DNA of 64,000 bases, from assembly GCA_021813435.1 (NCBI GenBank), contig JAKAKR010000008.1:124001-188000 (forward strand), in the 5' to 3' direction. Source of the DNA: Nanobdellota archaeon (GTDB taxonomy: Archaea > Nanobdellota > Nanobdellia > Woesearchaeales > UBA9642). The position numbers were made by a program, and so were the translations under genes. The notes beneath the pieces were generated by a model. That model was given only the letters and a program-made list of their open reading frames with translations. It was not told the DNA's origin and searched no databases. This document shows, in pieces, positions 4,155 to 52,356 of this stretch (positions are counted from its first letter, which is position 1; each line of letters opens with the position of its first letter).

Positions 4155-4721
4155 TTGATTGTAAAACCCCGACGGGAGGATCGCGAAGATGGGGGTGGCT
4201 TATTCGAAGAACTCGTCTATAACTATCTTTCTTCACGTCTCAATCTTTCCAAAGAGGAGATTCTTAAACTTGCCGCAAAAAAACAGGAACTTGCAAACGG
4301 AATACCCGTCGATATCCTTTGCGACAACGTACTCTCAAGTCTTGAGGCCATCGTCAAGTACTTGCGGGAAAACAAAAACTATTCCTATGCGCGTATCGCG
4401 TTAATTCTCCGGCGTAATCCTAAGACACTTGCAGTATCTTATGCGGTCGCAAAACGGAAAAAGCCTTTACCGTTTGCTGCAACAGTAGAATTCTCAAAAG
4501 TGCGCATCCCGTTTAGCGCATTTGACGTGCCGCTCAGCATCCTCGAATCCATCTGTTCATATCTCAAATCACAAGGGCATTCAAATGCAGAGATTGCGCG
4601 ATTGCTCTGCAAAGATCAAAAGACTATCTGGACAGTTTGCAAACGCGCTGAACAGAAGTTATCGCAAAAATCGACTACGTATTCTGGAGGAGAAGAGTCA
4701 TCAAACCATGAATACTATTGA
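4155..4721 (+). CDS. Tandem helix-turn-helix DNA-binding protein
   Basis: The 188-residue protein contains an internal duplication: LSSLEAIVKYLRENKNYSYA with RIALILRRNPKTLAVSYAVAKR, and LSILESICSYLKSQGHSNA with EIARLLCKDQKTIWTVCKRAEQ. Each half looks like a sigma-region-4 or HTH_23-type helix-turn-helix. The TTG at 4155 is the first in-frame start after a stop; nine codons beginning with an ATG at 4119 precede that stop in the same frame, so the true 5' end is uncertain. The 3' end overlaps the giant gene by 14 bp, which suggests translational coupling and a role in controlling that gene or the divergent one. Confidence 0.65.
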   Translation: MIVKPRREDREDGGGLFEELVYNYLSSRLNLSKEEILKLAAKKQELANGIPVDILCDNVLSSLEAIVKYLRENKNYSYARIALILRRNPKTLAVSYAVAKRKKPLPFAATVEFSKVRIPFSAFDVPLSILESICSYLKSQGHSNAEIARLLCKDQKTIWTVCKRAEQKLSQKSTTYSGGEESSNHEYY

Positions 4722-7700
4722 TATAACTAGCGAAGTACAAATGCCGCAGACGCGGAAAGCCAAGCTACTTGGCGCGCTCCTCTTATGTGTTATCGCCCTG
4801 GGATTATTCCTTTATGCATTCACGCCGGTATTCACTGGTCATACGGTGTTCGAGCAGACTGTACAGTTAACACTGAATAAAAATTATAGTGCAACACGTG
4901 AGGACTCACTCAATATTACACAGTCATTGAAGAGCTTAAGAATCAGCGGATCAATCATCGGCGAAGGGAATGCAACAATCTGGCTCAAGACGAGTTCAGG
5001 AGTGCAGTATAAAATCTATGATACACGAGAAATTCCGGCGCATTCTCCTGGTAGCAATTTAATCACTGGTCAAGTAATTGGCGAGAATAACAGTAACGAA
5101 ACCATTAATGATACGAGTAATCTCACCGCTTTCATCAATGATACTTCGACAATAGACAATACTACGATTAACGACACCCGCTTCAGAAATGATACGGCTC
5201 CTATTCATGAGCGTATCATTGATTCTAATTTTACCCATGAAACAATCGTGAGTAATATGACTGTGCCTGCAGAGAGCTTTACGATAGATAATACAACCCA
5301 TAGTGGCGCAGCAAATATTACTGAAAATCTCACTGAGAATACGACGACGAACATCACGGCAATTATGACTGAGAATATCACGACAATGGAAAACACCACG
5401 ACCACAGAAAATATGACGAAACATCAAGCATTACCTCCAGAGACCAGCGGATCTTTGGAAGCTTTAACACCACCGGCAGAAAATATCACAAACATCACCC
5501 GAAATATGACAAAAAATGTTACATTATCGGTTATTGAATCAAGGACATTCAGCGATGTATGTCTTGAGACCTGCGCGCTTTCCGGCGTTGAACCCACTTA
5601 TACGATATATATAGAAATTGATGGAAATGCAACACTTACGCTTAATACACTCCACTATACTTATGAAGAATCAATAGTCCAAACGAAACCTATTGAAAAT
5701 ATTACTGTAGTAGGAACGGCGAGTATCAATCTCTCAGAATACTTTACTGGTCAAAAGTTGATTTATGATATCACGACGCTCAAAAATAGCAATGTGTCAA
5801 TCGCTCACGGAATATTAACACTTACTGCTCTCATGAATGGCACGGAGACTGCCAAAATCTATGCAGTAAGCGGAAATAGCATGCTCGAATCTAATGCGTT
5901 TATAATCAGGAGCAGCACACTTGAAACGACGGAAATAACAGATACTATTGATATTGAAGATAATTTGACGAAAGATTTATTAAAGGACAAATTCAAGAAA
6001 CTCGACTTCTCTAAGGTCATAAAGCGGCTTGACAAGATAAAGAACACCACTGCATCGTATGATATCGAGTTCACGCCAAAACAGAAATCTCCTAACAAAG
6101 TAAAAATTGCCGAATTAAAGAACATCAGTACATTAGAATCAATAGATTTTATTGATTACAAACAGCATAAACAATCAAAGGTCATGACTGATGTTGTTGT
6201 CATTAATGCGCTCAATATTACGAATGCGACGATCATCCTTAAGAAATCTGGTCAGGTGAATGCCATTGCGCGCTGTGACAATTATACGATTGCAACTGCT
6301 ACCTGTGCGCAATGGGTTATTACTGCTATCCCTTTCATTGATCATGGCGATTCCATAGAATTTACGGTGACACATTTCTCTGCATACGGCGGAATCATCG
6401 AGATCACCAAAGCAGAGCATCTTGATGAGAACAGGACATTCATTGCAGACATCTATAATGAGACGCAAGCGCTTGATAATGTATGGTCAGAGCCAATTTA
6501 TACTCATGAATACGTGCGCGTGATGTTTAAACAGAACCTCACTGCAACAAATGATATCACGGTATATGTACGTAATGTACTTCAAGCAAATACGCGCATT
6601 GCAGTCTATGAAAAGGATAGTGCACAAATTATTGCGCTGTTCCCATCAATCAATGAGACAAAATATTATACGGCATATCTTTCCAATCTTACACAGCCAC
6701 AAGCAGTGTTTGACCTTCGAATAGTCAATGCAGATAATGACTCTCATGCATATCTGGAATTTGATCATATTGTTGATCCTACTTATACGATGACGAGTAA
6801 TAGCGCTAGTGTTTCAGCGACAAATATCTCGACAGGTTCACGCCTGAATGTGAGTGTGAATGTGACTGTAGATAGTAATAAAGGTGTATGGAGTATGTAT
6901 ATTAATTCCTCTCTTATTACTGGCGGTAGTGCTCTTCGTGTTGATGGGAGCTGCACTGGCTCAGATTCCTGGAAGGTTGTTCGCTTTATTGAGGACGGAG
7001 TCATATGTGCGACAGGAAGTGCATCATCGAATCTTTCGGCAGGAATGCTTTATTGTGATGGTGCGGCGGGAACTGCAATTGAGAAATTTGAAGTTGAAGC
7101 ATGCAGCGGGGCAAATTTTGGCGACCCCTATACGTTTTATTCTGATTGTCAAGGTAACAGCGGTAGTGATGCCTGTGCAGGATTTGGTGACGCAACGAGC
7201 GCCGTATCGCTTTATGGACCTCCACTCATCAACTCTTCACGTATGAGTCCAACAACTGCATACACTATAAGTACGCTTCAAGGATATTGCAATGCAACAG
7301 AAGGCGACGGACAAACGGTAAAATATTATTATATTTGGTATTTGAATGGCGCGCAGAATACGACAGGAAGTACGTCGAGTAATTATACGCAAGGGTTAGA
7401 AATTAATGTTGCGAACGTGAGCAGTTCTCTTCTGGCTATAGGCCAGAATTGGACATTCGCCTGTCTTGGCAGCGACGGGACAAATAGTTCATGGTTAAAT
7501 AGTTCAACGATTACCATTCAGAGTCTCGCACCACTCATGAATTCTTCTCGTATTTCTCCGTTGATCGCATATGCGAATGATACGCTCCTCGGTTATTGTA
7601 ATGCAACTAGCCCTGCAGGATTGAATGTTTCATATAATTGGAAATGGTATCTGAACGGCATCCAGAATACTACCGGAACAACAACGAGCAACTACACGCA

Positions 7701-10700
7701 AGGATTGGAAATTAATGTTGCGAATGTTTCAAGCAGTCAACTTGCTGCAGGACAAAACTGGGCGTTGAGTTGTTTAGCAAGCGACGGAAATCTCAATAGT
7801 ACATGGATGAATAGTACAACACTCAGTATTATTACACCTCCGACAATAAACTCTTCACGCATGACTCCTTCCACACCACAGGATAATGATGTCCTTTTTG
7901 GTTATTGTAACGCGACAGCAAACAATGGTACGCTTTTATATTATAATTATATGTGGTATGTTAATGGTGTTGCAAACACTACAGGCACTTTATTCAAAGA
8001 GGGGAGTATCTCTGCAGGCAACTATCATACGTGTGGTATTCGTGCTAATGATTCTCGCGTCATGTGTTGGGGGAAGAATACTGAAGGGGAATTAGGGGAT
8101 GGTACCACAAGTGATAAATATACTCCTACATTGATTAATGACTCTTCAGCGTATCTTATGGTTTCAGCATCGCATACGCATACCTGTGCTATTCGTGCTA
8201 ATGATTCTCGTGTCTTATGCTGGGGTGGAAATGTCGATGGTGAGATAGGAGACGGCACAACAACATCTCCGCGATTAAATCCCACACTTGCTAATGCCTC
8301 TTATGGATTTAAATATATCTCTACAGGCATTTATGATACCTGTGCTATTCGTGCTAATGATTCTCGTATGCTTTGTTGGGGCGGTAATACTTACGCTCAA
8401 GTAGGTGATGGTACGGCGGTTAATCCTCGACCAAACCCGACATTAACAAATATTACTGTAGGATTTTTTGCAGCTACAAATGGTGAACGATTCAGTTGTG
8501 GTATTCGTATTAATGATTCTCGTGTCATGTGTTGGGGCACTAATGGTGAAGGTGAGCTCGGTGATGGTACAATTAGTACACGATTAAATCCGGTTAATAT
8601 TAATGATGCCGCTGCGTATATTGCCATTTCATCAGGACAATATCATACCTGTGCTATTCGTGCTAATGATTCTCGCATGCTTTGTTGGGGGTATAATAAC
8701 TATGGTCAACTGGGCGACGGCACAGGCAATACGCGACTAAACCCCGTGCTTGTTAATGTGTCTTATGGATTCTCTGCAGTGACTACAAATTATTATACTA
8801 CGCTCGGCATTCGTGCTAATGATTCCCGCATTATCGGTTGGGGAACTAATGCACAAGATCAAACAGGCGATGGTACACAAGTTACTCCCCGAGCAAATCC
8901 TGTTCTTGCAAGCGATTCTTCTGCGTTTTCAAGCATTACCTCAGGAAGTGGACACGGATGTGCTGTTCGTATTAATGATTCTCGTGTGTTATGCTGGGGT
9001 TATAATCTATATGGTGAAGTTGGTGACGGAACAACTACCACGCCGAAATTAAGCTTTACATTCATCAACGATTCTTCAGGCTATTTTGCAGGATTTTGGC
9101 AGGGACAAGAACGGCTCGTAGATGTGATTGATTCTACAACCACCACGAACGGACAGACGTGGATGCTCAGTTGTCAAGTAAATGATAGTCAGAATGCAAG
9201 TAATTGGATGAATAGCACTTCAGTATGTATAGGCGGCAATTGCAACATTCCTCCGATTATATTTTCTTCTCGTATTTCTCCGTCGATCGCATATGCGAAT
9301 GATACTTTGCGCGGTTATTGTAACGCGACCGATGTAGATAATAATAATCTCACCTACAATTGGAAGTGGTATCTTAATGGTGTGCAGAATACAACCGGAA
9401 CGACAAATAATTATACTCAAGGTTTAGACGCAAATGTTGCGGATATCTCTTCTGGAAATCTTTCTATTGGTCAGAACTGGACGCTTTCCTGTCAGGCAAA
9501 TGATGGAACCACAAATAGTTCGTGGCTGAATAGCAGTGTAATAGTGATTAATGCACCGTATGGTTCTTTGAGTGTTGCAATCACTGCGCCTTCGACAGAT
9601 ATTTCTGTGGATCAGAATTCCACATTCTACTTGAATGCAACAGTAACTTGCACTGGTGCAACTGGCGCAGTCTGCGGGATAGTTTATGCAAATGCGAGGT
9701 ATAATACAAGCAGTGCAACGCCAGATACATTGATTAACACGACGGGTGGCGGAACGCCAGTATATATGATGGGTAATAGAAGTATGTGCTATCAGGAAAG
9801 TGCGAATGTCTCAACTGCTTGCGGCGGTCTTTCTACAGGAACGTACGCAAATGAGTCAACTGCGGGCTGGAATGCTCTTTCAAATCTGACTGATGAAAAT
9901 TGGAGTTCATATGGGTATACTGCCGGATTGGGAGGAGATTCTGCGACACTGTATATAAATTATACAAAACCTTCAGGTAGTTCGAATACGAGCTTATGGC
10001 AAATTGCAAATGGCAATGATACATTTATTAATGTAAGAAATATTTCTTTACCCCAACTCTGTTGGGATTATAGCGCTACAATAATACGCTTAAAAGTGGT
10101 GTCAGGAAATGGTGCTCTTCCATCGGCGGATTATGTGACTTGGAGTTGTTACAATGGCACCGGATATTTCGGACTAAATACAACTACGAGTAACCACTTG
10201 GTTTATGAAGACGCCATGTGGTGGAATATTTCGGGATCATCTAACCCACAAACATCTCCGACGTCATTATCTCAAGGCCAATCGTGGAGTGCGAATTGGA
10301 CTGTTAATGCGACAGGAACCACGGGAACCAGTTACGTAGTGGATGTATTATTCAATAGCAGTTATGGCGCGAGTAATGTTTCAAATAATGACACCGCAAA
10401 TAAACAAATATGCATCGGTAGTTGTAGTTCGAATGCCGCACCGGTGATGAATGCTTCTCGTATCAGCCCGACGAGTCCGAGAATCAACAGCACACTTCTC
10501 GGGTATTGTAATGCGACAGATGGTGATAACGACAATGTGACATATTCGTGGGTTTGGTACAAGAACAGTGTGCAGAATCGCACCGGAATAATGGCGAGTA
10601 ATTATACGCCAAGGATAGAAATTAATGTTGCAAATATCACTGATACATTAACACCGTATGATAATTGGACTTTGTCCTGTCAAGCAAATGATTCAATAAA

Positions 10701-13700
10701 TGTAAGTAGTTGGATGAATAGTTCAAATGTGACAATCATGGGTTCAACATCAGTAACTGCAAATAATTTCAATGGCGCGACAACAAATTTCAGATATTAT
10801 GATACTACAGAATTAACCGCACTCGCTAATGTCATCCTCGAAAAAGTAGGAATCGGAAAAATCGCATGGAATGCTGCAGTCAATGTGAGTTCTGTGAACT
10901 TCGATGCAAATATTATCATGGGCGCTAATGCTATTTATGTGAATAGTTCTGCATTATCGTCGACATTAAATTCCAGCGCAAATCTCACCCTATACAATGT
11001 ACCTTATGATCAGCCAATCATCACGCGTGATGGAGAAATATGCACGACATGTACGCAGTTTTCATTTGTAGGCGGAACATTAACATTCAATGTTTCTGGA
11101 TTCAGTAATTATAGTACGGTTCAAAACACCAGTATGCGTATCTGGGATAATAATGAGGGTAATGCATCATTATATGACGGCAATACTCTCAAATATGTCA
11201 ATCAGACAGTATTCATCTATGCAAATTACTCGAACGCAACCAGCAATGTGTCAATAACTGGCGCAACATGCGTTTTAAATATCAGTAACGGATTTAATGG
11301 GGTCATGAGCTATAATTCAACACCAGCATTATACTATCAAAATCTTACCTTCAACAACGCCGGAGTATACACGTACAACATTTCCTGTAATACGACAGGA
11401 TTTGCAAAGATTAATCTTACCAATACCATTAATGTAACGATTAATCCATTCCCTGTGATGCACACTCCGCGTATCGCTCCCTCGCCTGCGTATGCGAATG
11501 AATCATTACGCGGATATTGTAATGCAAGTGATGCAAATACGAATGAACTGTATTATGCTTGGATTTGGTACTTGAACGGCGCAGTCAATAGTACGGGTAA
11601 TACGACAGGCGGTGGTAGCAGTGGTGGCAGTAACTGGACATATCAAGAGAACTCGAACGGAACAGCCTATTCAGGTTCATGGGATAGTTTTTATGGCGTA
11701 TCATATATTTATGATGGTACTTGGACGACCTATTTTGTTTACTCGACAGCCGGAGCGTATTATTATGCCAATTATACGAAACCTGCAAATGCGCAGAATA
11801 ATAGTTTGTGGCAAGTGGCAGATGCTGCAGGAACAGTCAATCTCAGTATTGATGTTTCGTGTTGGAGTCAGACGCCGTTACAGTTTGGACTCTATAATAA
11901 TCAAGCTCTTTCTATAACAACATGGTCTTGTTGGAATGGAAGCAGCTGGACGACATTGCGTAACGTATCATCAACCCTCGTATACGAGGAAGCAATATGG
12001 TGGAATATCACGACTGCAGGTGGTGGCAGCGGAACAAATTATACACAGGGTCTTGAAGTCAATGTTGCAAATGTTTCGAGCAGTAACCTCTCTGCTAGTC
12101 AGAATTGGACTTTCTCTTGCCAAGCGAATGATTCTGCTCTGACATCGTTCTGGCTTAACAGCTCAGTAACAACAATACAATCATTGAATGCTGCACCTGT
12201 CATGAATTCTTCTCGTATTTCTCCGTCGATCGCATATGCGAATGATACGCTCCTTGGTTATTGTAACGCAACTGACGCGGATAACAACAATGTGACATAC
12301 TCTTGGATATGGTATCTGAATGGTGCAACGAATGCCTCCGGAGCAACATCGAGTAATTATACGCAAAGTCTTGAGGTTAATGTTGCAAATGTTTCGAGCA
12401 ACAATCTTTTTGTCGGCGACAACTGGACGCTCTCGTGTCGTGCAAATGATAGTCAGAGTACGAGCAGTTGGCTTAACAGCTCGAACGTGATGATTCAACC
12501 GAATGCATCCACTACTCTTAATATCTTATTTGTTCCACCGACTCCGGATAGTGGTACTTCTACTTTGAATACATCCACCATTGTTAATGTGAGTATCAAT
12601 GCATCTGCTCCGAGCAATCTCTCAGGGATTATTTGGAATTGGAATGGCACGAATTATACGATGTATAATAACTCTGTAGTATTATTATATAATCTCAATA
12701 ATGTGCCAGTATTCGGCGAGAATGCGTCGAGCAATAAGACTTTTGACGCGAGCGTGTATGGCAATAATGGTACCTGTCAGAATATGGGCGCAGGATGTAG
12801 TTATGTTGCAGGAAAATATGGTTCTGGCTTGCAATTTGATGGCATCAATGATTATGTTAACGTGAGTAATCCTGCTCCCCTGAATGATTTAGGCCCTGCA
12901 ACGTGGTCACTCTGGGTCAAGCGGAACAGTCTTACAAATTATGGTACCTTATTATACAAGAGTGATGGCAATACTGATGATGGTTGGTGGATTGATTTTA
13001 GAAACAATGGCGGTCCGGAATTAGGGGTTCAAATAGTTTATAGCACTGCGAATATTAAAAGGTATACTAATACGAGTCTACCGGGTGTGGGGCAATGGTT
13101 CCATTTAGCGGTTACTTGGGATAACACTTCAGTCAACTCCGGGGCGAGGGTATATATTGATGGTGTTGAAGTCGCGTATAGTTCAAGTTCTGGTCCGACA
13201 GGAACACACGCTTCTGATGCAGGAGATCCATTGTATATCGGTTGGGGTTTATCGGGTGCTCCGAATTATTTCAATGGTTCCATTGATGAAGTGATGATTT
13301 GGAATAGGAATCTTAGTGCATCAGAGATTAGTCAGCTCTACAAATCTAATCTCTATAAATACGATTCGAGTAATTGGCAATTCACCGCTAATCAATCTAA
13401 TCTCAGCTCAGGAAGTTATTCATACTTTGCATGTATGAATGATACTGCAGGATTAAATAATTGTACAGAGACGAGAATTCTTACCATCACTAATATTTCA
13501 AATACTCCGCCGGTGATAAATTCTTCGCGTATTTCTCCGTCGATCGCATATGCGAATGATACGCTCCTTGGTTATTGTAACGCAACTGACGCTGACGGCA
13601 CTAATCTTACGTATAATTGGAAGTGGTTCTTGAATGGCGCGCAGAATACTTCTGGAACAACATCGAGTAATTATACGCAAAGTCTTGAGGTTAATGTTGC

Positions 13701-15915
13701 CAATGTTTCTAGTGGCAATCTTTCCGTTGGTCAGAACTGGACATTCTCCTGTCAAGCGAATGATACTCAGGCAACGAGTAGTTGGCTGAATAGTTCAAAT
13801 GTTATAGTACAAGCACCATTTGGTTCATTGAGTGTTATCATCACTTCACCTCCGGCGGATATTTCCATGAATCAGAATTCCACATTCTACTTGAATGCGA
13901 CAGTGACATGCAATGGAGCTGCTGGCGCCATCTGTGGGATAGTTTACGCAAATGCGCGATATAATGCGACAAGTACAACGCCAGATACATTGATTAATAC
14001 AACGAGTGGTGCAACACCTTTTGTGATGACATCGGGCGGTAATGGTTCGCCTGTTCATGTGTGGAATGTTACGGATATTAATGGAAATAACTCGTTTGGC
14101 GTGGCTGTTGATTCTTCAGGTAATGTTTATACCGCAGGACGAGACAATAGTAATGATTATTATACTGTTAAGTATAATTCTTCTGGTTCTCAGGTGTGGA
14201 ATGTTACAGATACACACGGTTATTGGGTGTATGGCATTGCTGTTGATGCTTCCAGTAACGTCTATGTGACAGGATATACTTCTAGCAATGATTGGTATAC
14301 TGTTAAGTATAATTCTTCTGGTTCTCAGGTGTGGAATGTTACTGATACAACAGGATATAGGCCTGGCGGCATTGCTGTTGATTCTTCCGGCAATGTCTAT
14401 GTAACAGGGAACCTTGACGGTGCATCTTCTTATTATTATACTGTTAAGTATAATTCTTCTGGTTCTCAGGTGTGGAATATTACTGATACCGCTGGAAAGT
14501 ATGCGTATGGCATTGCTGTTGATACTTCAGGAAACTTCTATATTACTGGAGAAGATTCCAGCTTTAATTATTATACTGCAAAGTATAACTCTAGTGGTTC
14601 GAAACTGTGGAATGTTACAGATACGATCGGTACCGAAGCGTACGGTATTGCTGTTGATACTTCCAGTAACGTCTATGTGACAGGATATACTGGTAGCGGC
14701 GATTATTATACTGTAAAATATAATTCTACAGGGCAACAGCTGTGGACCGCCGCCGATACCTACGGAGATACTGCGAACAGTGTTGCTGTTGATTCTTCGG
14801 GTAACGTGTATGTGGCAGGGTATAATTCCACGTTTGATTGGTATACTGTTAAGTATAATTCTTCTGGTTCTCAGGTTTGGAATGTTACAGACGCAAACGG
14901 ATATAAAGCGTACGGTATTGCTGTTGATTCTTCTCATAATGTCTACGTGACGGGAAATAATGGTACGTATTATTATACAATCAAGTATTCACAGGCATCA
15001 TCACAATCAAACCCACAAACATCCTCGGGAAGTCTGACTCAAGGGCAATCTTGGAATGTTACGTGGACGGCGAATGCAACCGGTAGTACTGGTTCTAGTT
15101 ACTTTATCGATGTATTATTTAATAGCAGTTATGGTGCAAGCAATATCACTGCTAATGACACTGCAGACCGGAAGATAACAATCACTTCGGCAAACACTCC
15201 TCCATCAATAACTACAGTCCCTGCAATCGTCGCGCAGGACCCAGTTGAATCGCAGTCAAAACTTATTGCGATCAATTTCACAGTCAATGATCCGGACGGC
15301 AACGCGACGATCAATATAAGCAGCGCGATAGTCACTGTAAATAACTCTGGAATAACGCGGACCACCACTGCATGCAGCGGCAGTGCTATCAATGCAACAG
15401 CGCAGAATATCAGCTGCAATCTCACACTCAACTATTATGATCCTGCAGGGAGCTGGTCACTCAATGTTTCAATCAAGGACGCCAGCGGAGCATACACTGA
15501 GAATACCACGACTACCTTCACGTATAATGAGCTCTCTGCAATCACACTCAGTCTCAGCACTCTTGACTTCGGAACCCTTGCTATCGGCGCAGAGAACAAG
15601 ACCGCAAGTCCTATTGTCATCAATAATACTGGCAATATCAACTACAGTGCCATTGCGATTAAAGGATATGATCTTGCTAATGGAAGCTATCTTATTGGCG
15701 CCGCAAACTTTAGCATCAACACCACAAACAGCTCAACAGGAATCCTCATCCTCAATAATACACTCATCAATATCACAGGCGCTGCACTTGCCGCAGATAC
15801 CGACGCCGTGAAATCCAATGAGACACTCTATCCTTATGTCGACGTTCCCAATACTGTCCTTCCTGCAGCAGTCTATCGCGCAATCGCAGAATGGGTACTG
15901 GTACCCAGCAAATAA
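4708..15915 (+). CDS. Giant N-glycosylation-rich modular surface protein (about 3735 aa)
   Basis: The ATG at 4708 is chosen because a membrane-spanning signal or anchor (about residues 18-45) follows directly; GGAGGAG lies 16-22 bp upstream. Further in-frame ATGs upstream lie inside the HTH gene. Order of parts: Asn/Thr-rich stalk (5.05-5.53 kb), archaeal surface domains (5.55-7.2 kb), eight Ig-like repeats of type A between 7.2 and 13.8 kb, two beta-sandwiches of type B (9.56-10.43 and 13.81-15.18 kb), and a C-terminal domain (15.19-15.9 kb) paralogous to the protein at 3092-3934. RCC1-type and SBBP-type propellers and a repeated unnamed module are inserted inside repeats; a LamG domain sits between repeats. 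N-x-S/T sites are extremely dense and there is no C-terminal anchor. An adhesin or S-layer-like role is likely but inferred. Confidence 0.9.
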   Translation: MNTIDITSEVQMPQTRKAKLLGALLLCVIALGLFLYAFTPVFTGHTVFEQTVQLTLNKNYSATREDSLNITQSLKSLRISGSIIGEGNATIWLKTSSGVQYKIYDTREIPAHSPGSNLITGQVIGENNSNETINDTSNLTAFINDTSTIDNTTINDTRFRNDTAPIHERIIDSNFTHETIVSNMTVPAESFTIDNTTHSGAANITENLTENTTTNITAIMTENITTMENTTTTENMTKHQALPPETSGSLEALTPPAENITNITRNMTKNVTLSVIESRTFSDVCLETCALSGVEPTYTIYIEIDGNATLTLNTLHYTYEESIVQTKPIENITVVGTASINLSEYFTGQKLIYDITTLKNSNVSIAHGILTLTALMNGTETAKIYAVSGNSMLESNAFIIRSSTLETTEITDTIDIEDNLTKDLLKDKFKKLDFSKVIKRLDKIKNTTASYDIEFTPKQKSPNKVKIAELKNISTLESIDFIDYKQHKQSKVMTDVVVINALNITNATIILKKSGQVNAIARCDNYTIATATCAQWVITAIPFIDHGDSIEFTVTHFSAYGGIIEITKAEHLDENRTFIADIYNETQALDNVWSEPIYTHEYVRVMFKQNLTATNDITVYVRNVLQANTRIAVYEKDSAQIIALFPSINETKYYTAYLSNLTQPQAVFDLRIVNADNDSHAYLEFDHIVDPTYTMTSNSASVSATNISTGSRLNVSVNVTVDSNKGVWSMYINSSLITGGSALRVDGSCTGSDSWKVVRFIEDGVICATGSASSNLSAGMLYCDGAAGTAIEKFEVEACSGANFGDPYTFYSDCQGNSGSDACAGFGDATSAVSLYGPPLINSSRMSPTTAYTISTLQGYCNATEGDGQTVKYYYIWYLNGAQNTTGSTSSNYTQGLEINVANVSSSLLAIGQNWTFACLGSDGTNSSWLNSSTITIQSLAPLMNSSRISPLIAYANDTLLGYCNATSPAGLNVSYNWKWYLNGIQNTTGTTTSNYTQGLEINVANVSSSQLAAGQNWALSCLASDGNLNSTWMNSTTLSIITPPTINSSRMTPSTPQDNDVLFGYCNATANNGTLLYYNYMWYVNGVANTTGTLFKEGSISAGNYHTCGIRANDSRVMCWGKNTEGELGDGTTSDKYTPTLINDSSAYLMVSASHTHTCAIRANDSRVLCWGGNVDGEIGDGTTTSPRLNPTLANASYGFKYISTGIYDTCAIRANDSRMLCWGGNTYAQVGDGTAVNPRPNPTLTNITVGFFAATNGERFSCGIRINDSRVMCWGTNGEGELGDGTISTRLNPVNINDAAAYIAISSGQYHTCAIRANDSRMLCWGYNNYGQLGDGTGNTRLNPVLVNVSYGFSAVTTNYYTTLGIRANDSRIIGWGTNAQDQTGDGTQVTPRANPVLASDSSAFSSITSGSGHGCAVRINDSRVLCWGYNLYGEVGDGTTTTPKLSFTFINDSSGYFAGFWQGQERLVDVIDSTTTTNGQTWMLSCQVNDSQNASNWMNSTSVCIGGNCNIPPIIFSSRISPSIAYANDTLRGYCNATDVDNNNLTYNWKWYLNGVQNTTGTTNNYTQGLDANVADISSGNLSIGQNWTLSCQANDGTTNSSWLNSSVIVINAPYGSLSVAITAPSTDISVDQNSTFYLNATVTCTGATGAVCGIVYANARYNTSSATPDTLINTTGGGTPVYMMGNRSMCYQESANVSTACGGLSTGTYANESTAGWNALSNLTDENWSSYGYTAGLGGDSATLYINYTKPSGSSNTSLWQIANGNDTFINVRNISLPQLCWDYSATIIRLKVVSGNGALPSADYVTWSCYNGTGYFGLNTTTSNHLVYEDAMWWNISGSSNPQTSPTSLSQGQSWSANWTVNATGTTGTSYVVDVLFNSSYGASNVSNNDTANKQICIGSCSSNAAPVMNASRISPTSPRINSTLLGYCNATDGDNDNVTYSWVWYKNSVQNRTGIMASNYTPRIEINVANITDTLTPYDNWTLSCQANDSINVSSWMNSSNVTIMGSTSVTANNFNGATTNFRYYDTTELTALANVILEKVGIGKIAWNAAVNVSSVNFDANIIMGANAIYVNSSALSSTLNSSANLTLYNVPYDQPIITRDGEICTTCTQFSFVGGTLTFNVSGFSNYSTVQNTSMRIWDNNEGNASLYDGNTLKYVNQTVFIYANYSNATSNVSITGATCVLNISNGFNGVMSYNSTPALYYQNLTFNNAGVYTYNISCNTTGFAKINLTNTINVTINPFPVMHTPRIAPSPAYANESLRGYCNASDANTNELYYAWIWYLNGAVNSTGNTTGGGSSGGSNWTYQENSNGTAYSGSWDSFYGVSYIYDGTWTTYFVYSTAGAYYYANYTKPANAQNNSLWQVADAAGTVNLSIDVSCWSQTPLQFGLYNNQALSITTWSCWNGSSWTTLRNVSSTLVYEEAIWWNITTAGGGSGTNYTQGLEVNVANVSSSNLSASQNWTFSCQANDSALTSFWLNSSVTTIQSLNAAPVMNSSRISPSIAYANDTLLGYCNATDADNNNVTYSWIWYLNGATNASGATSSNYTQSLEVNVANVSSNNLFVGDNWTLSCRANDSQSTSSWLNSSNVMIQPNASTTLNILFVPPTPDSGTSTLNTSTIVNVSINASAPSNLSGIIWNWNGTNYTMYNNSVVLLYNLNNVPVFGENASSNKTFDASVYGNNGTCQNMGAGCSYVAGKYGSGLQFDGINDYVNVSNPAPLNDLGPATWSLWVKRNSLTNYGTLLYKSDGNTDDGWWIDFRNNGGPELGVQIVYSTANIKRYTNTSLPGVGQWFHLAVTWDNTSVNSGARVYIDGVEVAYSSSSGPTGTHASDAGDPLYIGWGLSGAPNYFNGSIDEVMIWNRNLSASEISQLYKSNLYKYDSSNWQFTANQSNLSSGSYSYFACMNDTAGLNNCTETRILTITNISNTPPVINSSRISPSIAYANDTLLGYCNATDADGTNLTYNWKWFLNGAQNTSGTTSSNYTQSLEVNVANVSSGNLSVGQNWTFSCQANDTQATSSWLNSSNVIVQAPFGSLSVIITSPPADISMNQNSTFYLNATVTCNGAAGAICGIVYANARYNATSTTPDTLINTTSGATPFVMTSGGNGSPVHVWNVTDINGNNSFGVAVDSSGNVYTAGRDNSNDYYTVKYNSSGSQVWNVTDTHGYWVYGIAVDASSNVYVTGYTSSNDWYTVKYNSSGSQVWNVTDTTGYRPGGIAVDSSGNVYVTGNLDGASSYYYTVKYNSSGSQVWNITDTAGKYAYGIAVDTSGNFYITGEDSSFNYYTAKYNSSGSKLWNVTDTIGTEAYGIAVDTSSNVYVTGYTGSGDYYTVKYNSTGQQLWTAADTYGDTANSVAVDSSGNVYVAGYNSTFDWYTVKYNSSGSQVWNVTDANGYKAYGIAVDSSHNVYVTGNNGTYYYTIKYSQASSQSNPQTSSGSLTQGQSWNVTWTANATGSTGSSYFIDVLFNSSYGASNITANDTADRKITITSANTPPSITTVPAIVAQDPVESQSKLIAINFTVNDPDGNATINISSAIVTVNNSGITRTTTACSGSAINATAQNISCNLTLNYYDPAGSWSLNVSIKDASGAYTENTTTTFTYNELSAITLSLSTLDFGTLAIGAENKTASPIVINNTGNINYSAIAIKGYDLANGSYLIGAANFSINTTNSSTGILILNNTLINITGAALAADTDAVKSNETLYPYVDVPNTVLPAAVYRAIAEWVLVPSK
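8002..9099 (+). repeat. Seven RCC1-type propeller blades inserted in an Ig-like repeat
   Basis: Seven tandem units of about 50 residues carry H-T-C-x-I-R-A-N-D-S-R, then V-x-C-W-G-x-N-x-x-G-x-x-G-D-G-T, the signature of RCC1/ATS1 beta-propeller blades. Seven blades make a closed ring. The block lies between the NTTGT and NGQTWMLSC parts of the third type-A repeat. Unit 6 has lost both cysteines (T-L-G-I-R and I-I-G-W-G). Confidence 0.85.
9781..10233 (+). other. Inserted module S, copy 1, inside a type B beta-sandwich
   Basis: About 150 residues lie between the TPDTLINTT and NPQTSPTSL parts of the first type-B domain. It shares with copy 2 (11629-12015) the pattern Y-x-N-Y-T-K-P, S-L-W-Q-(I/V)-A, T-W-S-C-(Y/W)-N-G and L-V-Y-E-(D/E)-A-(M/I)-W-W-N-I. 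I do not recognise a named family; a jelly-roll or discoidin-like fold is possible. Confidence 0.65.
11629..12015 (+). other. Inserted module S, copy 2, inside an Ig-like repeat
   Basis: About 129 residues are homologous to the insert at 9781-10233 but sit in a different host fold, the sixth type-A repeat. Gly/Ser linkers flank both sides (TGGGSSGGS before, AGGGSG after). The insertion point matches that of the RCC1 block in the third repeat. Confidence 0.65.
12676..13341 (+). other. LamG/concanavalin-like domain of the giant protein
   Basis: The segment shows YGNNGTC, GLQFDGINDYVNV, TWSLWVKRN, WFHLAVTWDN, RVYIDGVEV, YIGWG and GSIDEVMIWNRNLSASEI. This is the order of motifs in LamG-like jelly-roll (concanavalin A-like) domains, which bind carbohydrate or matrix ligands. 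It is flanked by Ig-like repeats. Confidence 0.85.
14050..14991 (+). repeat. Seven SBBP-type propeller blades inserted in a type B beta-sandwich
   Basis: Seven units of about 45 residues follow the pattern (V/L)-W-N-V-T-D-T, G-I-A-V-D-S-S-G-N-V-Y-V-T-G, Y-Y-T-V-K-Y-N-S-S-G-S, characteristic of SBBP/NHL-like beta-propellers. The block separates TPDTLINTT from NPQTSSGSL of the second type-B domain, the same loop that holds module S in the first. Neighbouring blades are nearly identical in DNA, for example at 14161, 14297, 14441 and 14851. Confidence 0.85.
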
Positions 15916-20728: not shown

Positions 20729-20861
20729 GGGTATCGCCTCCTGTGCGCAATACGGTGTGTTATTCACTTTAGTGATATGATTTACAAGAATTTAATATGA
20801 TATTATAGAAAATAAGTAAAAAGACGTAAAATTTAAATATAGACTGCGGTATTTATACATT

Positions 20862-21878
20862 ATGCAGGTTTTACCTCCTGAATCAGCAGATTGCTCCCTA
20901 TTCTGGCTGGATATCAAGGACAAGAAGATTCTTGTCGTCCTTCTGGAGGACATGCGCACGCCGTTGTCGCAGATTGCACGGCGTGTAGGGCTTTCGCGGC
21001 AGACTGTGGAATACCGCATCAATAAATTGCAGGAGCATCGCGTCATCGCTGGATCGCGCGCGGTGGTGAATCTCAATGCGCTGGGATATCATACCTATCA
21101 TTTTTTTCTTAATGCAAAGACGCTCGCTGAAGAGCAGGAGATCATTGCGCGCGCAAAACAGTTTGATGCAGTCAATGTGATCATCAGTTATACGGGCCGC
21201 TGGTCACTTGAACTTTCAATCATCGCGCGAACACCAGATGAATTCATCGCATTATCTGAAGCATTATTCAGCGATTTTCCTGTCGATGTCGCAGGACAGA
21301 TGCTCCTGATCCGCACAATCAAGTCAACTGTTCTTCCGCCGGCATTTCTGGGGCAATCATTCCCACTGCCTCGCTCCAAGAAGACTATTGCAGCAGCCGT
21401 TGATGAGAAAGATCTGCACCTTATTGAGATGCTCAGCGATGATGCGACAAAGCCCGTGGCGCTCCTTGCAAAGCAGACGACTCTTTCCACAGATGCAGTC
21501 CTGTATCGTCTCAAGAAACTGTGCCGTTCAGCGCATATCATTGAGTTCAGGCCTATCGTCAATTATGCTGCGCTTGGGCTTTCAATCCACACTCTTCTCC
21601 TGAAGGTTTCCGGAAGCGCTGCTGCAATCCATAAGCTCGAACTCTTTCTTCAGGAATCTGTCGCAACGATCTGGATTGCAAAAGCATTTGGCGACTGGAA
21701 TTATATCATCTTTATTGCTGCAGCAACAATGGATGCGGTGCATGAATTCATTCTCCTTGTGAAATCGCGCTTTTCCGGAATCCTGCGCGAATACGAGGCG
21801 CTCTATGCCTACAAAGAACATAAATACACCTATTACTCGCGTGCAATACGAAAGGATTTTTCTGCAAAAAAATCCTAA
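20862..21878 (+). CDS. Lrp/AsnC-family transcription regulator with duplicated HTH and sensor units
   Basis: The 338-residue protein is about twice the length of a normal Lrp protein. Unit 1 has an AsnC-type HTH (DIKDKKILVVLLEDMRTPLS, QIARRVGLSRQTVEYRINKL), followed by an alpha/beta sensor domain. Unit 2 starts near residue 185 with DEKDLHLIEMLSDDATKPVA and LSTDAVLYRLKKL, again followed by a sensor-like domain (FGDWNYIIFIAA). A single chain could therefore mimic a dimer. ATTTAAATA about 25-33 bp before the ATG suggests a leaderless mRNA. Its divergent neighbour is the HD hydrolase; the effector is unknown. Confidence 0.85.
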   Translation: MQVLPPESADCSLFWLDIKDKKILVVLLEDMRTPLSQIARRVGLSRQTVEYRINKLQEHRVIAGSRAVVNLNALGYHTYHFFLNAKTLAEEQEIIARAKQFDAVNVIISYTGRWSLELSIIARTPDEFIALSEALFSDFPVDVAGQMLLIRTIKSTVLPPAFLGQSFPLPRSKKTIAAAVDEKDLHLIEMLSDDATKPVALLAKQTTLSTDAVLYRLKKLCRSAHIIEFRPIVNYAALGLSIHTLLLKVSGSAAAIHKLELFLQESVATIWIAKAFGDWNYIIFIAAATMDAVHEFILLVKSRFSGILREYEALYAYKEHKYTYYSRAIRKDFSAKKS

Positions 21879-25309: not shown

Positions 25310-26443
25310 ATGAAAGATGCGATTGTAACACCTTGGGAAGTCAAGGGAAATATCGATTATGATAAAGTCGTAAAACAATTCGGCGTGTCAAAAATAGACC
25401 CTATACTCCTTGAGCGGATACAAAAAATCACTGGTGAATTGCATCCGTTCCTGAGACGCAACATCTTTTTTGCGCATCGCGACCTGCAGTTCATCCTTGA
25501 CCAATACGAGAAAGGCAACAAGTTCTTTCTTTACACCGGAAGAGCGCCCTCAAGCCATACGCACCTCGGGCATATTGTCCCCTGGCTTTTCACCAAATGG
25601 CTCCAGGACAAATTCGACGTCGATCTCTGGTTCCAGTTTCCCGATGAGGAAAAATTCCTCTTCAAACGGGACCTGACTCTTGCAGATACAGAAAAGTATA
25701 CTTATGAGAACATGCTTGACGTCATTGCGCTCGGATTCAACCCGGAAAAGACGCACTTCCTCATTGACACCAAACACGCAGGCATCATGTTTCCTGAAGC
25801 GATAAAGGTTGCAAAACTCATCAATTTCTCGACAGCAAAAGCAGCATTCGGCTTTGACAATGAACAGAATATTGGTGCAATATTTTACACTTCAATGCAG
25901 GCAGTGCCTGCGTTCTTGCCGAGCGTTCTGCAGAAAAAGAATATTCCCTGCCTTATCCCGCACGCAATTGATCAGGACCCGCACTTTCGCGTAAGCCGCG
26001 ATGTCATCCCAAAACTAGGGTATTACAAGCCCGCATCAATCCAGTGCCGATTCCTTCCCGGACTCGGAGGAATGCAGGAAGATGGAAAGATGTCCGGATC
26101 CTCAGGAGATAATGCAACCATCTATACCGTTGATGATCCAAAAACAGTCAAGAACAAAATCAATAAATACGCATTCTCCGGCGGGCAGACGAGTGTCGAG
26201 GAGCATCGCCGCCTCGGCGGAAATCCCGACATTGATGTCGCATACCAGTGGCTCACATTCTTTGAGGAGGATGATGAGAAACTTCGCGAGATCTATCACG
26301 CCTACAAGTCCGGCGCAATGCTCAGCGGCGAAATCAAAAAAATACTTATTGACAAGATCAACACATTCCTTGCAGTGCACCAGCAGCAGCGTGAAAAAGC
26401 GAAAAAGAAACTACCACAATACCTCTATCAACCCTTGTGCTGA
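25310..26443 (+). CDS. trpS: Tryptophan--tRNA ligase, archaeal/eukaryotic type
   Basis: The class I synthetase charges tRNA-Trp. The 377-residue protein carries GRAPSSHTHLGH (HIGH motif as HLGH, 85-88) and KMSGS (260-264). The archaeal TrpRS block INKYAFSGGQTSVEEHRRLG follows, then DIDVAYQWLTFFEEDD. The N-terminal DAIVTPWEV start is typical of the archaeal/eukaryotic branch. TATTTAAAC lies about 25-30 bp before the ATG with no Shine-Dalgarno, so the mRNA is probably leaderless. Confidence 0.96.
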   Translation: MKDAIVTPWEVKGNIDYDKVVKQFGVSKIDPILLERIQKITGELHPFLRRNIFFAHRDLQFILDQYEKGNKFFLYTGRAPSSHTHLGHIVPWLFTKWLQDKFDVDLWFQFPDEEKFLFKRDLTLADTEKYTYENMLDVIALGFNPEKTHFLIDTKHAGIMFPEAIKVAKLINFSTAKAAFGFDNEQNIGAIFYTSMQAVPAFLPSVLQKKNIPCLIPHAIDQDPHFRVSRDVIPKLGYYKPASIQCRFLPGLGGMQEDGKMSGSSGDNATIYTVDDPKTVKNKINKYAFSGGQTSVEEHRRLGGNPDIDVAYQWLTFFEEDDEKLREIYHAYKSGAMLSGEIKKILIDKINTFLAVHQQQREKAKKKLPQYLYQPLC

Positions 26444-49866: not shown

Positions 49867-52356
49867 TTACTCTTTCACAATCTTGCTCATATTGACTGCT
49901 TTGTCGCCAGAACCGAGCTTCATGAGTCGGACGCCTTGCGTATTCCTGCCGACTGAACTGATCTCTGTGCAGGGCGTTCTAATGAGTATCCCTTTCCTGC
50001 TGATGAACATGACGTCGTCGTCGTCTTTGACTCCGGTTACTGCAACAACATGGCCGTTACGCTCAGAGCATAAGATGTTGCGGACACCCTTGCCGCCGCG
50101 TGCAATAAGTCGGTATTCTGAGATTAACGTACGCTTGCCAAAACCGTTTTCTGTCAGCGTAAGTATCTGCCTGTCTTCTTCAGCGACGATAAGTCCGATG
50201 ACCTGATCGTCTTTTTCAAGCCTGATGCCGCGAACGCCTGCAGATTGCCTGCCCGTGGGTCTGACATCTGCCTCATCAAATCGTGCTGCAATGCCGTGCC
50301 GTGTTGCAAGCATGAGATTCTTTGTCCCGTCGGTTAATAATACATTGATCAATTCGTCTTTTGCCTCGGCATCAATATTTATTGCAAAGATTCCACCCTT
50401 GCGGGGGTTGCTGAACTCTGAAAGATTGGTCTTCTTGATTGTCCCGAGTTTTGTGCCCATGACAAGAAAGTGCTTATCATCAAATTCCTCGATGGGAATG
50501 ATCGCATTCACACGTTCATTCGCGTCAAGCTCCAAAAGGTTGACAATCGCTTTGCCCATGCTTTGGCGTGATGCATCAGGGATCTTGTAGACTTTAAGCC
50601 AGTAGAGCCTTCCACTGTTGGTAAAGATAAGAAGGTAGGAATGTGTTTTTGCGACAAACAATTCTTCGATGTAATCATCTTCTTTGAGATCTGAGGCAAT
50701 GACTCCGCGCCCGCCGCGTTTCTGGACCTTGTATGTCTCAAGCGGCATGCGCTTGATATACCCGGAGTGGCTGCGCGTTACGACAACAGGCTCATCAGGA
50801 ATGAGGTCCTCGACTTCAAAATCGAGTTCTTCTTCAGCGACATCAATGATTTTTGTCTTTCGCGAGTCCTTCTTCCCGTAGGTCGTGATGATTTCCTGCA
50901 TCTCGTCAATGATGATCTTGCGGATGCGCAATTCTGAACCGAGAATATCCTTGAGTTCTGCGATTGTTTTGAGGAGTTCTGCGTATTCTGTTGCGATCTT
51001 TTCCTGTTCGAGCGCTGCGAGCCGTGAAAGCCGCATCTCAAGGATTGCATTGCTCTGCTCCTGGCTCAATGCGTATTGCGCGATAAGTCCACGGCGTGCA
51101 TCATCGACGGATTTACTGGCTTTGATGAGCGCGACCACTGCATCAATATGGCTGAGCGCGATGCGTAACCCTTCAAGAATGTGCGCCCGTTCCTCGGCCT
51201 TGCGCAGATCAAAGATGCAGCGCTTGCGTACAACATCAATGCGGTGCTGGGTATAGCTTTCCAGATAGGATTTTAATGAGAGGAGTTTCGGTTCGTTATT
51301 GACGAGCGCGACAAAGTTTATGCCAAAGCTGTCCTGCAAACGTGAATAGTTGTAAAGGAGATTCTTGACGATTTCAGGATTGGCGTCTTTCTTGAGTTCA
51401 AGAACAATGCGGATCCCGTCACGGTCAGATTCGTCGCGCAGATCAGCGATATCGCTGATTTTCTTGTCGCGGATGAGCAGTGCGATGTCTTCGATGAGTT
51501 GCGCCTTGTTGACCTGATAGGGGATTTCAGTGACGACAAGCCGCTTGCGGTCCTTTTTCGTTTCGATAGCGATGACTGACCGTATCTTGATGATACCCTT
51601 GCCGCGGGTGTATGCCTCGATGATTCCCTTGCGTCCGATGATCTCTGCGCCTGTCGGGAAATCAGGTCCTGGAACCATCTTCGAGAGCTCTTCAGTGGTA
51701 ATCTCTGGATTGTTGATGAATGCGATGACTGCATTGCAGGTCTCGGCCAGATTATGCGGCGGGATGTTTGTTGCCATGCCGACTGCGATTCCTGCGCTTC
51801 CGTTGACAAGAAGGTTCGGGAATTTGCTTGGTAGAACGACTGGCTCCTTGAGCGTTCCATCAAAGTTCTCGGTGTAATCGACGGTTTCTTTGTCGATGTC
51901 CTGGAGCATCTCATCGGATATTTTTGCGAGGCGCGCTTCAGTATAACGCATTGCTGCTGCACTGTCGCCATCGATTGAGCCAAAATTTCCCTGCCCCTGG
52001 ATCAGGGGGTATCGGAGTGAGAAATCCTGCGCCATGCGTACGAGCGATTCATAGACCGCAACATCACCGTGCGGATGATATTTACCCAGTACTTCTCCGA
52101 CGATTCTTGCGCATTTCTTGTATGGTTTATTGGAGGTATTTCCAAGTTCATTCATTGCGTAGAGTATGCGGCGATGGACTGGCTTGAGACCATCGCGTAC
52201 ATCCGGCAGTGCGCGTCCGACGATAACCGACATTGCATAGTCCAGATATGATCGCTTCATCTCTTCTTCGATAGGTTGGGCGATGATTCTCAGATTCCCA
52301 TTGCTGTTTTCCGGTGCAGAATTTCCTTTTTGGATAGGCGTTTTATCGTCGGGCAT
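49867..52356 (-). CDS. gyrA: DNA gyrase subunit A
   Basis: With GyrB the enzyme introduces negative supercoils. The 829-residue protein has the breakage-reunion domain with catalytic Tyr138 (AMRYTEA), [11 protein letters not shown] (94-104) and [20 protein letters not shown], then a coiled coil and a six-bladed C-terminal domain. The GyrA box appears as QKRGGRG near 542-548, so it is gyrase rather than topoisomerase IV. At the quinolone-contact positions (E. coli Ser83 and Asp87) it has Val99 and Glu103. No gyrB is adjacent. It is a bacterial-type gene, as in other archaea with gyrase. A minus-strand TATA (CTTATAAATTG near 52489-52499) would give a leader of about 110 nt. Confidence 0.97.

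Follow-up and report, generated by a model that had tools for sequence, protein, structure and literature searches.

Cargo domains nested in fixed loops of giant beta-sandwich surface proteins of DPANN archaea

Introduction

The means by which small archaea that depend on a host recognise their partners are largely unsettled, and the locus described here raises the question in a specific form. The window, that is, the whole stretch of 64,000 nucleotides of DNA that was analysed, comes from a small-genome DPANN archaeon, probably dependent on a host, and encodes a giant surface protein of 3735 aa. The original prediction held that four foreign domains are lodged inside the repeats of this protein, and not between them, and that each type of repeat accepts different domains at one and the same loop. 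The question is whether such nesting is real and, if so, whether the inserted domains (cargos) and the repeats that receive them (hosts) have followed separate evolutionary paths.

A giant protein with a single hydrophobic segment

The gene occupies positions 4708..15915 of the plus strand, as do all of its features described below, in a single open frame running from the ATG at 4708 to the stop at 15915. Residues are numbered along the translation P0001, in which residue n begins at nucleotide 4522+3(n-1). The top Kyte-Doolittle windows, at residues 80-104, mark a membrane-spanning segment (4762..4833), either a signal anchor or a signal peptide, and this stretch close to the N-terminus is the one strong hydrophobic segment of the whole protein. 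Taken together with 248 N-x-S/T sequons, it fits the expectation for a glycosylated surface protein. A Pfam scan matched RCC1, LamG (Laminin_G_3) and SBBP repeats, and returned no family for the two main host types, Ig-like and type B, nor for the cargo named module S. The DEAD helicase that flanks the gene is kept in relatives and, in those examined, it has no giant gene as a neighbour. Elsewhere in the window, the gene for DNA gyrase A (49867-52356, minus strand) gives six C-terminal propeller-repeat matches, in what is a small archaeal genome.

Split hosts and their cargos

The Ig-like repeat, of about 103 residues, is present in eight copies (R1 to R8), starting at residues 900, 1003, 1106, 1577, 1973, 2310, 2558 and 2996. 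Six of the eight are intact, with an invariant Cys/Trp/Cys pattern (C24, W40, C82), and sequence and model strands together give the features of the Ig fold, namely a seven-strand sandwich, a Cys pair joining strands B and F and a Trp in strand C; profile matches to Ig constant domains are weak. The intact copies are R1 and R2 (7219..7836, full-length matches to profile A1), R4 (9250..9555), R5 (10438..10743), R7 (12193..12501) and R8 (13507..13815), likewise recognised by A1. Copies 3 and 6 are split. Specifically, the N-half of R3 (7837..7986, residues 1106-1157) covers A1 columns 1-52 with E 4e-16 and forms strands in the AlphaFold2 (AF2) model, and its C-half (9091..9240, residues 1525-1571) covers columns 56-102 with E 5e-8; for R6, the N-half (11449..11601, residues 2311-2363) covers columns 2-54 with E 8e-17 and the C-half (12034..12186, residues 2492-2554) columns 39-103 with E 3e-19. 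As had been proposed, the two copies are interrupted at the same point, directly past N-x-T-G, by an RCC1 propeller in R3 and by module S in R6. To judge from the sequence, a conserved Cys of the N-half (GYC) and one of the C-half (LSC) would bridge the two parts of the Ig host.

The cargo of R3 (7987..9090) is a seven-blade RCC1 propeller, with Pfam matches above cut-off (PF13540/PF00415) and a model that Foldseek pairs with UVR8 and RCC1 structures (UVR8 4dnv_B, E 4.6e-31). Module S, the cargo of R6, occurs twice in the protein and in two host types: copy 1 (S1) lies in the loop of the type B sandwich B1 (9775..10236) and is 40-41% identical to copy 2 (S2) in R6 (11632..12012), which was delimited by a match to profile A2 and by sequence. 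No match to module S, a candidate discoidin (F5/8 type C) domain, was obtained in Pfam, NCBIfam or PHROGs, and a profile search of the PDB gave weak matches only, the best sequence match being a lectin (E 0.035). Gly/Ser-rich linkers (GGGSSGGS, GGGSG) flank S2 in R6, within 11602-12033, and S1 in B1 is without such linkers.

The type B sandwiches, B1 and B2, start at residues 1681 and 3101, are 73-74% identical in amino acids and are both split. In B1 the N-half (9553..9774, residues 1678-1743) matches columns 1-66 of profile A3 (E 6e-36) and the C-half (10237..10422, residues 1903-1967) columns 61-125 (E 3e-32); in B2 the corresponding parts are 13813..14040 (residues 3098-3185, columns 1-84, E 8e-38) and 15001..15195 (residues 3493-3556, columns 62-125, E 1e-31). 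Here the cargo is a seven-blade SBBP propeller (14041..15000; PF06739, E 6e-33) and, like the RCC1 propeller, it is in frame and carries its full set of seven blades. The prediction that module S and the SBBP propeller share one loop holds, and only the exact site moves. Homologues in which the loop is empty read INTT-x-G-x-TPF-x(3)-GG/GA-x-SNPQTS, an example from the relative G147 being INTTTGGTPFHITGGVSNPQTS, and they put the junction at the loop's tip, about 8-12 residues past TPDTLINTT, the motif at which it had first been set.

A third host, different from both Ig and type B, lies at about 12511-13491. Its N-half (12511..12729) is weakly Big_13/Big_7-like and is split in the same way in the homologues L092/L136 and L087/L131; its C-half (13348..13491) matches the host C profile. 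Between them sits a LamG/ConA-like domain (12730..13347), matched over the full length of PF13385 (1-151/151, E 3e-26). In other words, all four inserts first described are confirmed, with boundaries correct to within a few residues, and the tally was short by one. In profile matches, complementary host halves flank each insert, which therefore lies inside a repeat and not between repeats. One homologue of host C carries a further level of nesting: in L131/L087 (JACWAN010000054.1, Woesearchaeota), residues 841-1493, a LamG domain within host C is itself host to a DUF5122 propeller.

Split hosts against controls

The split search looked for complementary host halves 60-700 residues apart and allowed the junction almost anywhere in the profile. 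Among 651 real ORFs it returned 29 splits, 17 of the Ig host and 12 of the type B host, and none among the same ORFs reversed or in three shuffled sets of them; chance is thereby rejected as the source of the splits. As the 651 ORFs had been chosen for having host matches, these counts are uninformative on the overall frequency of splitting. Two of the 17 Ig splits, both in L148, are weak. The N-halves of the remaining 15 stop at column 48-59, save for one that runs into its cargo. In the strong type B splits the N-half ends at column 54-74, the exception being B2 of the window, whose match extends to column 84.

The same results bear on the possibility that nesting is a misreading, the halves being separate partial repeats or the products of a chimeric assembly. 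The host halves of R3 are indeed divergent, and the assembly is a draft in 16 contigs. Against this, the halves are complementary, with E values from 1e-7 to 1e-38, type B copies without interruption exist, and independent assemblies contain these splits too, as the controls do not, so that for the set as a whole this explanation is refuted and we consider it extremely improbable.

Structure models of the hosts

The region of R3, its RCC1 propeller and R4 (residues 1106-1680) was modelled with AF2 from four sequences, giving a mean pLDDT of 80 and a pTM of 0.64; large mixed alignments were set aside for structure prediction, as MAFFT misplaced fragments in them. In the model of R3, three to four host strands are followed by the propeller and then by the remaining strands, in the same order as in the intact R4. 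The host halves themselves are modelled at pLDDT 54-76 (N-half) and about as low for the C-half. This model supports, short of proving, a closure of the Ig host around its RCC1 cargo, as would be needed for the two halves to form one domain. For B1 with module S the model is too weak to carry the same point (pLDDT 48; better stretches of the host halves at about 60-80; module S without a defined fold). That the type B host closes around its cargo is suggested mainly by the homologues with uninterrupted copies.

The same loops in related genomes

Related genomes had been expected to hold the same hosts with other cargos or with empty loops, and both were found. Splits of the Ig host at HMM columns 48-59 occur in 12 genomes. 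The RCC1 propeller occupies the loop in the window, G147, G254 and G139, each time with the same junction; module S does so in the window, G005, G070, L139, L144 and G441; LamG in G254 and G157; a BNR/sortilin-type propeller in G001, which belongs to the genus of the window; an LVIVD propeller in G440; and an uncharacterised domain in G317. In L134, which belongs to another phylum (Aenigmatarchaeota), the loop carries twice an unnamed repeat domain without Pfam match. Module S also splits an Ig host in L138 (CACVKW010000741.1), a contig whose label names a proteobacterial symbiont of Olavius; either the contig was binned wrongly or the arrangement also exists in bacteria.

The clearest type B splits (columns 54-74) are those of the window, G076, G082 and G087. 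The cargos are module S in the window, SBBP in the window and in G076:C6, a ConA-like domain in G076:C4 (named from its sequence, with no Pfam match), a weak CBM_6-like domain in G087:C5 and an uncharacterised domain of 330 residues in G082. More divergent type B hosts, with N-half E values of 0.003-0.2, in several of them 0.02-0.2, enclose an S8 protease (G087:C8), DUF2341 (G144) and unnamed domains (G067, G091). The loop is empty in two copies of G135 and in G147, and in less similar copies of G128 and G050. Viral contigs searched with the C-half of B1 gave no match. Cargo and place are thus not always paired, as the contents of both the Ig and the type B loops vary between genomes.

The S8 protease of G087:C8 (L075, ORF residues 423-879) is a complete subtilisin-like enzyme (PF00082, E 1e-47) as cargo of a divergent loop. 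In L079 (G053:C256, ORF residues 433-636) a type B-like split encloses an insert with hydrophobic, membrane-like segments, and this split may reflect a gene rearrangement instead of a cargo.

The variety of contents admits a neutral explanation, in which the loop is a harmless insertion site and giant proteins gather domains with no selection for display or binding. Exposed loops of beta-sandwiches generally tolerate insertions, and this tolerance, together with the fact that many cargos are unrelated to one another and one is a protease, speaks for such accretion. We nevertheless regard it as decidedly unlikely. The cargos are mostly ligand-binding folds (LamG, propellers, putatively discoidin-like sandwiches) and not random sequence; those that could be assigned for the most part have ends that lie close together and are known to act in binding elsewhere. 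The cargos are moreover in frame with full blade sets, and distant families share the site, as does L134 of another phylum.

Separation of cargo and host

Evidence that cargo and host separate in evolution comes from within the gene itself. A pair made of one Ig and one type B unit has been duplicated, so that 9250-10422 (R4 and B1) and 13507-15195 (R8 and B2) are 74-82% identical in DNA overall, with 78% between R4 and R8, 82% between the N-halves of B1 and B2 and 74% between their C-halves. One copy of the pair carries module S and the other the SBBP propeller. The two type B hosts are each other's nearest (73% in amino acids), and B2 shares only 51% identity with the G076 host that carries SBBP. 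Likewise, the host part of R6 shares 61-68% identity with R4, R7, R8 and the empty Ig of G147, and 43-50% with S-bearing hosts elsewhere. A weakly supported tree of Ig hosts requires 9 changes of cargo label, compared with 10.2 on average after shuffling, which indicates that the hosts are not grouped by cargo and does not by itself prove many swaps; the signal of the host trees is too low for dating exchanges. Gene conversion homogenising the repeats could explain part of this pattern, including the likeness between neighbours.

These comparisons weigh on the possibility that the units are old and mostly static, each nested cassette having arisen once and been copied as a block, with apparent swapping reduced to a sorting of ancient units. 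The Ig host with RCC1, to judge by the junction that recurs in four genomes, looks like a long-lived cassette more than a freely swapped part, the type B host with SBBP is found in both the window and G076, and cargos are only 41-52% identical between genomes, all of which would agree with great age. As a general account it is unlikely, since B1 and B2 are recent duplicates with different cargos, R6 is much nearer to empty neighbours than to other S-bearing hosts, and G001, within the same genus, has a BNR propeller in its Ig loop.

A bolder reading, which we hold to be improbable, would be an actively diversified plug-in surface system of DPANN archaea, in which dedicated docking loops trade cassettes for binding or catalysis as duplicated host units recombine with one another, on the time scale of strains, and so change partner specificity.

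A model of permissive loops

The best explanation of the nested anatomy, of the fixed insertion loops, of several cargos per loop with one cargo in two hosts, and of the empty loops in relatives is that permissive loops of a beta-sandwich rod at the cell surface carry replaceable cargo domains, a reading to which we give a probability of about 0.72. According to this model, the repeats would form a stiff rod of beta-sandwich domains at the cell surface, and each host family would offer one insertion-tolerant loop, just past strand C in the Ig host and between TPF-x(3)-GG and SNPQTS in type B. The cargos entering these loops would be whole domains with neighbouring ends, such as beta-propellers, ConA/LamG domains and putatively discoidin-like sandwiches; the host would fold from its two halves and hold the cargo sideways off the rod. 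In this way ligand-binding or catalytic modules could be gained, lost and replaced with the rod unbroken and, over evolutionary time, different cargos would reach the same loop, at least in part through duplication of a host unit followed by a change of its content. From the anatomy we infer that the cargos may be displayed sideways, bind ligands and contribute to attachment to other cells, and that recombination may be the route by which they arrive; a function as adhesin and an active mechanism of exchange would be compatible with these features.

If the loops do house binding domains, nested cargo would flag, from sequence, the regions of unannotated giant proteins that are likely to bind. 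Moreover, the host loops described here are known from nature to take propellers, lectin-like sandwiches and possibly a protease.

Relation to known split-domain and giant surface proteins

Domain insertion is a recognised event in evolution, in which a domain with adjacent termini is placed into a surface loop of another. The present case differs from the general one in that many unrelated cargos have come to use one and the same loop, in different families and orders.

The closest known parallel is bacterial. In the RTX adhesins AhLap, FrhA and MpIBP, Ig-like split domains within a rod of repeats bud a ligand-binding domain sideways; the cargos include CBM, PA14, peptide-binding, RTX roll and vWFA domains, with nesting within nesting where the vWFA domain has its own insert, and split domains have been proposed as a marker for recognising ligand-binding domains in these adhesins (PMC12077191, PMC10865825). 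The novelty first claimed for paired hosts and cargos must accordingly be narrowed: no description from archaea was found in a search of largely open-access literature, and split Ig-like domains as such are known from bacteria (PMC12077191, PMC10865825). The window protein resembles the RTX adhesins in that the halves of an Ig-like domain flank another folded domain. It is unlike them in being archaeal, in its other host and cargo families, and in having a single host family that occurs empty as well as with many cargos, and a cargo that two host families share. A further source cited on the split domains of RTX adhesins is Graham et al. 2024 (Proteins 92:933). Over the whole window protein, neither Pfam nor NCBIfam gave RTX nonapeptide repeats or a C-terminal type I secretion region, Pfam gave no other RTX-adhesin domain, and no domain was matched to an N-terminal outer-membrane retention module, the N-terminus being a single hydrophobic segment; most relatives that have named records are archaea without an outer membrane. 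The best reading is that the window protein is an archaeal counterpart of the RTX split domains with a wider cargo range, and not a member of the RTX family. A convergent evolution of split-domain display in archaea thereby becomes testable.

Among archaeal proteins, the adhesin-like proteins of Methanobrevibacter and Methanosphaera are large modular surface proteins of varied domain architecture, and the main text of their description is silent on split, nested and propeller domains (PMC11532034). The window protein shares with them the large size, the modular build, the archaeal origin and the surface location. Nearer still in composition are the SPEARE-type proteins of nanohaloarchaea, giant Ig-repeat surface proteins of DPANN archaea for which a role in host contact has been suggested; as far as the accessible text of that report goes, the likeness extends to giant size, to N-anchored or secreted Ig-repeat architecture, to small DPANN genomes and to propellers together with LamG, and the difference is that their domains are given in series and cargo nested in Ig-like domains is not described there (PMC10266531). 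Pfam and NCBIfam scans of the window protein returned no VirB4/TraG-like ATPase or other enzymatic domains. Giant frames with Ig hosts are also found elsewhere in the survey, and among the largest is an open frame of 10,180 residues in G363:C12, with at least two Ig hosts (20829-21125 and 26025-26324).
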